In this document: piece after piece, positions 4,133 through 6,433 of the stretch | How positions within the stretch are numbered: position 1 is the first letter of the stretch | Layout of the letters: each line of letters starts with the position of its first letter | Origin: Hymenobacter cellulosivorans | GTDB taxonomy: Bacteria; Bacteroidota; Bacteroidia; Cytophagales; Hymenobacteraceae | Assembly (NCBI RefSeq): GCF_022919135.1 | Contig: NZ_CP095049.1 | Location: 248,001 to 312,000 of the forward strand | Direction: 5' to 3' | Length of the DNA stretch: 64,000 bases | The notes under the pieces: generated by a model | What the model was told of the DNA's origin: nothing | Seen by the model: the letters and a program-made list of their open reading frames with translations, nothing else | Databases searched by the model: none | Made by a program: the position numbers and the translations under genes

Positions 4133-6433
4133 GTGTCTATTGCCTCGCCCCGAATCCTGCTCATTACTCCGCCGCTTACGCAGCTGAACACGCCCTATCC
4201 GGCCACGCCCTACATCAAGGGGTTTCTCGGCGGCCGGGGCTACCAGGTAACCCAGGCCGACCTGGGGTTGGAGCTGGTGCTGAAGCTGTTTTCGGCGGAA
4301 GGACTGCGGCGGGTGTTTGCCGAAATCGAGGCCGGCAGCTTTGAGCTCAGCGACAATGCCCGGCGCATGGTGCGGCTGCAGCGCAGCTATTTGGCGACTA
4401 TTGGGCCGGTCATCCGGTTTTTGCAGAACAAAGACACGACCCTGGCTTCGCGCATCTGCCACAGCCGCTTTCTGCCCGAAGCTGCCCGCTTCGACAACAT
4501 TGCCGACCTGGAAGCGGCTTTCGGCACCCTGGGCCTCAACGACCAGGCCCGCCACCTGGCTACGCTCTACCTCGAAGACCTCGGAGACCTGATTAAGGAA
4601 ACCGTCGGGCCGCAGTTCGGCTTTTCGCGCTACGCCGAGCGCCTGGGCATGTCGGCCACCTCGTTCGACGCCATGCATGAGGCCTTGCAAACCGCGCCCA
4701 ACCTGCTGGACCGGATGTTGCTGGAGCTCATGGACGAGCTGGTGGTCCGCGTTGAGCCCGACGTGGTAGGCTTTTCGGTGCCGTTTCCCGGCAACCTGTA
4801 CGGGGCTTTGCGGCTGGCCGGTCGGGTAAAGGAATTGCGCCCCCAGGCCAAAACCCTGATGGGCGGCGGCTACCCCAACACCGAGCTGCGCCAGATTAAA
4901 GAGCCCCGCTTCTTCGACTACATCGACTTCCTGACTCTGGACGACGGCGAAGGCCCCTGGCTGCGCCTGCTGGAGTATATTAGCTGGCAGTTGTCCGTTG
5001 TTAGTTGTCAGGTTGAAGAACCCGCATACGCCGGGCAAGCAGAGCGTAACCCAGCCCACCAGAACGACCTAACAAGGGACAACCAACAACTGCCAACTAA
5101 AACCCTGCAGCGCACATTCCTGCGCAACGAGGCAGGCGTCGTGGAGTATATCAACCACCCGTACCCCGACGTTCCGCACACCGAAGTCGGCACGCCTGAC
5201 TACAGCGACTTGCCGCTGAGCGAATACCTATCGGTCATTGAGGTGCTCAACCCCATGCACCGGCTCTGGAGCGACGGGCGCTGGAACAAGCTCACCATTG
5301 CCCACGGCTGCTACTGGAAGCGCTGCTCCTTCTGCGACGTAACCCTGGACTACATTTCCCGCTACGAAACCGCCCCGGCCACCCTGCTCGTGGACCGGAT
5401 TGAGCAGATTGTAGCGCAAACTGGCCAGACCGGCTTTCACTTCGTGGATGAGGCCGCCCCGCCCCTGGCCCTGCGCGACCTGGCTGTGGAGCTCCTCAAG
5501 CGGCAGGTGAATATTACGTGGTGGGGCAACATCCGCTTCGAGAAAACCTTCACCCCCGACTTGTGCCGCCTGCTGGCCGCTTCGGGCTGCATTGCCGTGA
5601 GCGGCGGGCTGGAAGTGGCTTCGGACCGGCTCTTGGCCCTGATGGAAAAAGGCGTCACTATTGCCCAAGTAGCGCGGGTTACCGACGGCTTTACCCAGGC
5701 CGGTATCATGGTACATGCTTACCTGATGTACGGTTTCCCAACCCAGACTGCCCAGGAAACCGTGGACGCGCTGGAAGTGGTCCGGCAGCTGTTTGGGGCA
5801 GGTATCGTGCAAAGCGGCTACTGGCACCGCTTCGCCATGACGGCCCACTCCCCCGTGGGAAAAAATCCGGCTAAGTACCAAGTGGTGCCCATCGGGCCCG
5901 AGCCCGGCGACTTCGCCTGGAACGACCTGTGGCACGACGACCCCACCGGCACCGACCACGAGAAATTCGGCCCGGGCCTAGCGAAGGCACTCTACAACTA
6001 CATGCATGGTGTGGCTCTGAATGAGCCCCTGAGTTTCTGGTTCGACTTCAAGACGCCCCACCCGAAAGTGCCCCGCCAGCTGATTCAGCAAGCCCTGCAG
6101 GATTCCGGCAAGCCCGATTTCGCCAAGCAGAACCAACGCTTGTTCTGGCTGGGCAATGCGCCCGAGCTGCGCTACACCGACGCCAAAAAAGGCCAACGCG
6201 CCGTGCTGACGTTCTATGAGCAAGCGGAGGACTTCGAGGTAAAAACCAATGCCGAGCTGGGTCCGTGGCTGCATAAGCTGCTCACCAGCCTAGCCACGGA
6301 TTACGATACTAAGCTCCTGGTAAAAGAAGCTGCGGCCAGCTTCCCGGCCAGCGTAGCCGGCATGAGCTTCGAAGCCTTCTTGGCCTCCTATGCTTGGCAA
6401 CTGCTGCGTGAAAAAGGCTTATTGATTCTGTAG
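4133..6433 (+). CDS. B12-binding-type radical SAM protein with in-frame palindromic insertion
   Basis: A 766-residue protein starting at GTG shortly after a -7 element. The N-terminal 270 residues resemble a cobalamin-binding domain of radical SAM enzymes (PRILLITPPLTQLNTPYPAT; VVGFSVPFPGNLYGALRLA; TLMGGGYPNTELR). The radical SAM domain begins at about residue 385 with HGCYWKRCSFCD, giving C393, C398 and C401, a CX4CX2C spacing instead of the usual CX3CX2C. A TIM-barrel region follows (FHFVDEAAPPL, WWGNIRFEKTF, GLEVASDRLLALMEKG). The substrate is unknown. Residues about 283-323 are encoded by a palindromic repeat inserted without breaking the frame. They separate the two domains and are compositionally odd (many Q, S, N), so activity may or may not survive. 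It is convergent with the following gene with a 4-base gap. Confidence 0.85.
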   Translation: MSIASPRILLITPPLTQLNTPYPATPYIKGFLGGRGYQVTQADLGLELVLKLFSAEGLRRVFAEIEAGSFELSDNARRMVRLQRSYLATIGPVIRFLQNKDTTLASRICHSRFLPEAARFDNIADLEAAFGTLGLNDQARHLATLYLEDLGDLIKETVGPQFGFSRYAERLGMSATSFDAMHEALQTAPNLLDRMLLELMDELVVRVEPDVVGFSVPFPGNLYGALRLAGRVKELRPQAKTLMGGGYPNTELRQIKEPRFFDYIDFLTLDDGEGPWLRLLEYISWQLSVVSCQVEEPAYAGQAERNPAHQNDLTRDNQQLPTKTLQRTFLRNEAGVVEYINHPYPDVPHTEVGTPDYSDLPLSEYLSVIEVLNPMHRLWSDGRWNKLTIAHGCYWKRCSFCDVTLDYISRYETAPATLLVDRIEQIVAQTGQTGFHFVDEAAPPLALRDLAVELLKRQVNITWWGNIRFEKTFTPDLCRLLAASGCIAVSGGLEVASDRLLALMEKGVTIAQVARVTDGFTQAGIMVHAYLMYGFPTQTAQETVDALEVVRQLFGAGIVQSGYWHRFAMTAHSPVGKNPAKYQVVPIGPEPGDFAWNDLWHDDPTGTDHEKFGPGLAKALYNYMHGVALNEPLSFWFDFKTPHPKVPRQLIQQALQDSGKPDFAKQNQRLFWLGNAPELRYTDAKKGQRAVLTFYEQAEDFEVKTNAELGPWLHKLLTSLATDYDTKLLVKEAAASFPASVAGMSFEAFLASYAWQLLREKGLLIL
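4980..5100. repeat. Palindromic repeat element with imperfect inverted ends, inside a CDS
   Basis: A 121-bp segment whose ends (4980-5013 and 5067-5100) are imperfect inverted repeats of 34 bases. Both begin TTAG(C/T)TGGCAGTTGT when read inward, with about eight mismatches in the arm. The centre contains a second short palindrome-like part (CCCGCATACGCCGGG). The repeated GTTG/GTCA wording differs from the codon style of the surrounding gene. It lies between the cobalamin-binding and radical SAM domains and keeps the frame open, encoding an extra linker. It resembles intergenic palindromic repeats or MITE-like elements; no transposase is present. Confidence 0.75.

Follow-up and report, generated by a model that had tools for sequence, protein, structure and literature searches.

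The palindromic insert and its host gene

How does a palindromic repeat come to lie inside a protein-coding gene, and how does it persist there with the reading frame kept open? This question is raised by a gene in the window, the 64,000-nucleotide stretch of Hymenobacter cellulosivorans DNA analysed here (248001-312000 of the contig). The gene (4133..6433, + strand) encodes a B12-binding-domain radical SAM protein of 766 aa in one open frame, and its best match is found in H. lucidus (90% in the best segment). The limits of the inserted stretch, 4979..5104 (+ strand; residues 283-324), were set by comparing the linker with that of 80 orthologs and of a further 21 from the outgroup; the stretch is 126 nt where orthologs with a 29-aa linker have 27 nt. 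Relative to these 29-aa linkers, 42 residues replace 9, a net gain of 33. The original prediction, which gave 4980-5100, ends of 34 bases and about 40 added residues, came close to these values. The left arm (4989..5013, + strand) is an array of 7-bp units, and the right arm (5067..5098, + strand) consists of the reverse-complement units and encodes LTRDNQQLPT; the sequence of the loop between them (5014..5066) varies between copies of the repeat. An inverted-repeat search extended the arms to 45 nt (4969-5013 and 5067-5111) at 76% complementarity, around a core of 21 nt (4989-5009 and 5078-5098) at 86%. Across the 64 kb, only one other inverted repeat reached 24 nt with arms within 200 bases, and it is shorter than the linker palindrome. 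Furthermore, the predicted DNA fold of 4969-5111 reached -25 kcal/mol compared to -15.95 (sd 2.66) in 200 dinucleotide shuffles, none of which was as stable (z -3.40). An Rfam search of positions 4800-5300 found no structured RNA (best E 0.23; 19.2 bits against a gathering threshold of 62). Taken together, the palindromic in-frame insert in the linker is real; an artefact or a chance origin was ruled out by the shuffles, the single-contig genome and the 80 orthologs.

The insert lies between the B12-binding and radical SAM domains, because Pfam matches at residues 202-258 (B12-binding; below threshold, 27.4 bits against a cut-off of 32.1) and at residues 389-548 (Radical_SAM) flank it. These positions, together with the single 766-aa frame, agree with the earlier claim of an uninterrupted frame between the cobalamin-binding and radical SAM domains. 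The top NCBIfam match of the protein, TIGR03975, scored 74.4 bits, far under its cut-off; a PDB sequence search with the protein gave no match, and the best Foldseek matches were TsrM (6wte) followed by OxsB (5ul2), with low TM. In the AlphaFold2 model, residues 288-323 in the insert region have a pLDDT below 50 and sit between a predicted helix (273-283) and a predicted strand (328-331). The model is only fair (overall pLDDT 73.4, from 34 sequences), and residues 366-411, which contain the radical SAM cysteines, were modelled as poorly as the insert. The usual spacing of radical SAM cysteines is CX3CX2C. Here they are arranged as C-YWKR-C-SF-C, a CX4CX2C spacing (window 5309-5335, residues 393-401), and none of the three varies across the 34-row alignment.

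The linker is short in relatives and variable in Hymenobacter

We measured the linker from DDGEGPWLR to QRTFLR in orthologs from a one-genome-per-species collection (80 kept of 98 confirmed), which gave 81 genus-level genes with the window gene, whose linker is 62 aa. For the outgroup, loci were taken for 21 of the 27 genomes of the order outside the genus that had a match; the genus row L162, for which the wrong frame had been picked up, belongs to neither set. Of the 81 genes, 14 have a linker of exactly 29 aa (one of them, L099, titled Solirubrum) and 67 have one of 34-103 aa. All 21 outgroup orthologs, from other families of the order, have a linker of exactly 29 aa, and the short linker is therefore ancestral. 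Homologs free of the extra residues, which the original prediction had proposed to look for, are thus numerous. In a protein search, the linker was 29 aa in 30 and longer in 90 of the best 120 of 7999 relatives. The 67 long-linker genes were all open and in frame over the matched range. In two genes with 29-aa linkers, L073 (H. nivis) and L108 (H. coccineus), the length of the matched range cannot be divided by three and one frame contains stops, possibly through a frameshift or an error in match extent. Filled sites replace ancestral bases and are not plain additions, and no target-site duplication was seen by eye. In addition, pN/pS was 0.50 in the inserts compared to 0.10 in the rest of the gene (11 pairs, hand-chosen as sharing an insert, with one row used twice), suggesting weak constraint on the inserts.

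Copies of the repeat are dispersed in the H. cellulosivorans genome

In the window, each arm is an array in which the 7-bp unit AGTTGTY is repeated (family A1). The arm pattern gave 176 matches in the single-contig genome of 6.10 Mb, many of them overlapping within one array, compared to 0 matches for the reversed-pattern control. Clustering of the listed places, which include the first 100 from one source, resulted in at least 61 sites, and a scan confirmed arms in 60 of them, again a lower bound; the further copies whose existence the original prediction made a check are therefore present. Both arms were found at 49 sites, in the order GTTGT-loop-ACAAC in every case. The elements are mostly about 60-150 bp and vary widely in length, with a median loop of 24 nt in 47 clean two-arm sites. 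Among the 35 loops that reach 20 nt, likeness hardly exceeds that of shuffled loops, with a mean pair score of 12.0 compared to 10.9 when shuffled and a best pair score of 30 compared to a shuffled best of 21. The scanned length was a multiple of three in 25 of 47 palindromic A1 copies (11 in each of the other classes), above one third, an excess that may be an artefact of scan-set boundaries.

Of 44 non-genic palindromic copies, only 13 could be read through in a forward frame, fewer than the mean of 21.1 obtained by shuffling; genic copies therefore look like rare readable survivors, and the counts leave the idea of a coding-adapted A1 element unsupported. By codon scoring of 210 bases per flank, a procedure that misses insertions closer to gene ends, 5 of the 60 sites lie within a gene and leave its reading frame open. 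Besides the window gene, the genes are MurC, D-Ala-D-Ala ligase, IspG and methylmalonyl-CoA mutase, these four named by NCBIfam above cut-off. The in-frame repeat has both arms in IspG and also in the D-Ala-D-Ala ligase protein, which has two such domains and is truncated where the stretch ends; a single arm is present in methylmalonyl-CoA mutase and in MurC, where it encodes the peptide LTTDNQQLTT. Three more sites have matching frames on both flanks but a stop between them, as expected between co-oriented genes.

Repeat families in the linker tend to follow the repeats of the genome

A palindromic repeat family was given to 57 of the 67 long linkers (A, 21; B, 34; C, 2), leaving 10 unassigned. 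Families were sorted by distance to the motif consensus and, in a few cases, by eye: L063, L068, L087 and L100 were moved from unassigned to B, the weak matches L043 and L089 were set to unassigned, and L078 and L086 were kept as B. Family A linkers carry the heptads A1 (AGTTGTC, 9 linkers), A2 (GGTTTCT, 4) or A3 (AGCTGTT, 8, including two AGCTTGC variants). Family B linkers are CGTC-ended hairpins of the type CGTCATGCTGAGC..., and in the 28 of 34 whose left arm could be placed, one end carries CGTC (23) or TGTC (5).

Other repeats were also observed. The linkers of L083, L091 and L104 contain an extra palindrome or half-palindrome, CCCCTCTCC...GGAGAGGGG, inside B-type linkers or alone; the same type occurs in the IspG loop of L228, and these palindromes encode peptides such as APLSAGEGPGVRF. 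Short tandem-like repeats (SPSPAMAGEH, PAEASATPAEA) of no recognised palindrome family occur in the linkers of L082, L089 and L093. Shortened inserts, with a single arm or a partial B element, were found in P0016, P0103, L035, L068 and L078, which suggests in-frame deletion via recombination or slippage inside the palindrome.

We compared the linker with the repeat content of 49 genomes using one-sided Mann-Whitney tests (upper medians, overlapping matches counted, uncorrected for kinship). The repeat family of the linker was commoner in its own genome than in others: the median number of matches was 158 compared to 25 for A1 (p 0.009), 32 compared to 1 for A2 (p 0.002), 316 compared to 21 for A3 (p 0.0002) and 59 compared to 31 for B (p 0.028). 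An exception is L036, which has an A1-like linker and only one A1 match in its genome. The 9 genomes with an empty linker are repeat-poorer, with a four-pattern median of 47 compared to 225 in the other 40 (p 0.0005), although L053 and L039 have an empty linker despite 143 A1 and 154 B matches, respectively. In the 21 outgroup genomes, A1 gave 0-9 matches (any in 10 of 21) and B gave none.

The same pattern in IspG and MurC

IspG had matches in all 41 genus genomes, and loci were taken for the best-scoring 30, a non-random sample, in which the loop ALIDRY...DPFQY was 29-30 aa in one half and 39-67 aa in the other (15 each). By eye, the long IspG loops carry A1 (5), A3 (5), an AATTAGT-like heptad (2) or a CCCTCTCC palindrome (1), and 2 are unclassified. 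MurC was examined in 30 of 41 genus genomes; its loop had 32-36 aa in 19 of them and 38-62 aa in the remaining 11, at least 4 of which have A-type arms by eye. In the IspG and MurC comparison the L251 loop was counted by eye (34 aa). Judged by sequence, the IspG and MurC loops appear to behave like the radical SAM linker within this genus sample.

Comparison with known systems

Published systems are compared here as described in excerpts of the papers cited. Rickettsia palindromic elements (RPEs) are palindromic, 105-146 bp long (about 150 in the second paper) and dispersed, and are found in frame in conserved genes as well as between genes (PMC2229807, PMC10969869); each encodes a conserved peptide (PMC10969869). 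A title on Wolbachia palindromic repeats is cited in PMC2229807. The Hymenobacter element is likewise palindromic, of approximately 100-150 bp with widely varying lengths, has many dispersed copies and occurs in frame in conserved protein genes (5 of 60 sites). However, it belongs to another phylum, its arms are arrays of 7-bp units with unconserved loops, its copies lie mostly outside genes (5 of 60 genic) and are not enriched for open frames, and several unrelated families occupy one site across a genus. The RPE analogy of the original prediction thus holds for a dispersed in-frame palindrome that keeps the gene open, also in four other core genes, and fails for the conserved encoded peptide, which is absent. 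The comparison supports a likeness in apparent mode of action more than membership.

REPs tagged GTAG or CGTC encode inserts in core proteins of several species; CGTC repeats are known in Bacteroidetes, and in recB two Xanthomonas species have different REPs at nearly the same position (PMC3733652). The CGTC REP is defined by a stem of 8-9 bp, a loop of 4-5 nt and a CCA-like tail (PMC3733652). Family B, in species other than that of the window, resembles these REPs in its CGTC or TGTC end, the one feature compared, whereas the A1 family of the window is a heptad array; the site is re-used in 67 of 81 Hymenobacter orthologs, and no such scale was met in the excerpts of PMC3733652. Bacterial MITEs with open frames (Correia, ERIC/RU, QMITE) are short inverted-repeat elements fused in frame (PMC2229807, PMC10969869); in contrast, the loops of the Hymenobacter repeat are unconserved, and neither a target-site duplication nor a parent insertion sequence came to light by eye. 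In marine Beggiatoaceae, direct repeats of the heptamer TAACTGA are dispersed between genes (PMC4679880), and these share with Hymenobacter the dispersed 7-bp unit arrays, although the Hymenobacter arrays are inverted around a loop and some are genic. Nematomorpha mitochondria also have genes that contain long inverted repeats and yet encode functional proteins (PMC6649704); there both arms encode conserved protein parts, whereas the Hymenobacter arms are extra loop sequence. The excerpts of the RPE and REP literature compared contain no heptad-armed coding palindromes, no Hymenobacter and no multi-family re-use of a site across most of a genus. Among the top literature matches listed, those on heptad arrays included, none concerned such inserts in Hymenobacter or Bacteroidota; published cases may nevertheless exist.

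Origin of the insert

We consider it highly probable that a dispersed palindromic repeat entered the gene at the junction of the B12-binding and radical SAM domains and persisted in a tolerant, exposed loop. A copy of the repeat, with inverted 7-bp arrays round a variable loop, would have inserted at the domain junction and would survive there because the loop is exposed and tolerant and the copy is in frame without stops. The insert would be a passenger that the protein tolerates, translated into a disordered loop and without a function of its own, and the hotspot would reflect the supply of repeats in the genome together with a permissive loop. The weak constraint on the inserts and the rarity of readable copies fit passengers tolerated in permissive loops of a repeat-rich genome. 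The arms may spread by array copying or template switching and not by a Y1 transposase. The original prediction had called the repeat mobile, for which the presence, absence and family switching inferred on the gene tree speak; no Y1 transposase was found in the H. cellulosivorans genome, and movement was not seen directly.

How often repeats entered the linker was explored on a tree of the gene with the linker removed. A tree that unites the 13 empty Hymenobacter rows in a single clade was rejected (AU p 1.4e-109). Assuming that the 29-aa form is never regained, 20 gains are placed on the ML tree, with a median of 19 (2.5-97.5% range 17-20) in 200 of 1000 bootstraps; when reversal to empty is allowed, 8 changes between empty and inserted suffice. 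Switches among A, B and C alone number 11 (10-12). The family labels show clustering on the tree, with 28 changes where shuffled labels gave a mean of 40.6 (range 33-46), and therefore many inserts were inherited and are not fresh. At the same time, several unrelated families are found at one linker site, and therefore several entries were needed.

It is possible, with the balance somewhat against it, that gains were few and that linker alleles then spread or were swapped between species by homologous recombination, which would still allow a repeat origin. The clustering of labels speaks for such exchange, as does the codon phase of family B: the left arm starts in a single phase in all 28 placeable inserts (of 34), and by inspection two frames of the arm read open. 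The single phase favours either few B insertions with descent and exchange, or selection for one tolerated peptide. Furthermore, B inserts far apart on the tree have common flanks by eye (for example KERHAE and HDVL), and some A1 insert loops look homologous in sister groups, also by eye. The inserts of the window and of L031 are alike and look like one event, yet the ML tree splits the two genes; constraining them together was not rejected (p 0.47). Exchange is less easily reconciled with the several entries that unrelated families at one site call for, with the tendency of the linker family to match the repeats of its own genome, with the B element that by eye adjoins the apparent left end of an A element in L055 and L078, or with the fact that more than one gene is affected.

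As to how the dispersed repeats spread, we propose only tentatively, and rate as doubtful, that heptad arms are spread and rewritten without a dedicated transposase, so that the linker palindrome is overwritten by the dominant heptad family of the genome (A1, A2 or A3) through hairpin or template-switch copying between arrays. The match between linker family and genome, the variable loops with related arms and the lack of a Y1 transposase in the H. cellulosivorans genome speak for overwriting without proving it, as do the three heptad families at one linker position, with related-looking loops in some sister groups. Arms within one copy are slightly more alike than arms across copies (identity 0.846 compared to 0.829, p 0.0026; permutation within length class, 41 of 47 copies), a small excess that hairpin-based copying would explain.

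The same arm excess could be expected if the hairpin itself were selected in DNA or mRNA, for example by slowing the ribosome so that the first domain folds, and the site is indeed a domain junction. Hairpin energy fell below that of shuffles (z of -3 or less) in 48 of 67 inserted linkers and in 0 of 14 empty ones. However, the remaining 19 inserted linkers do not reach this value, 14 of 81 genes and all 21 outgroup orthologs do without an insert, and MurC and methylmalonyl-CoA mutase here carry one arm only, which makes selection for the hairpin unlikely.

Mobilisation of the repeats as REPs or REPINs by a RAYT (Y1 tyrosine transposase) would be in keeping with inverted arms, dispersed copies and the CGTC or TGTC end of all 28 placed B arms, but we regard it as quite improbable: the single-contig H. 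cellulosivorans genome, the one Hymenobacter genome searched, gave no PF01797 match while the control search was positive in 5 of 14 genomes, and according to the excerpts of PMC3733652 CGTC repeats occur without a dedicated transposase. An autonomous parent flanked by arms was also considered, but inspection by eye of the ORFs that separate neighbouring arm sites in two cases (L209, L024) revealed nothing transposase-like. Finally, the least credible account is that the long linker represents a normal extension, functional or adaptive, of this Hymenobacter enzyme and that its repeat likeness is secondary: a frame kept in 67 of 67 genes and a pN/pS below 1, which leaves room for constraint, are set against unrelated peptides of very different lengths at one site, predicted disorder of the insert and the same DNA dispersed elsewhere in the genome.

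Meaning for Hymenobacter proteins

Until now, most known in-frame palindromic repeats came from Rickettsia, and the cases in other organisms were scattered. In Hymenobacter, a genus of free-living environmental bacteria, dozens of species have the loop of the same enzyme either empty or filled by differing families, and the housekeeping enzymes IspG and MurC show the same pattern as the radical SAM linker. If the overwriting of linker palindromes is true, concerted evolution of non-coding repeats would set the sequence of a protein loop. Repeat-derived loops in Hymenobacter proteins can also mislead homology searches and models. These natural alleles bring three questions within reach of testing: the price that a protein pays for selfish DNA, whether tolerance or targeting decides which loops are used, and the way in which repeats lacking a known transposase spread. 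They thereby provide a natural experiment on how selfish DNA becomes part of proteins.
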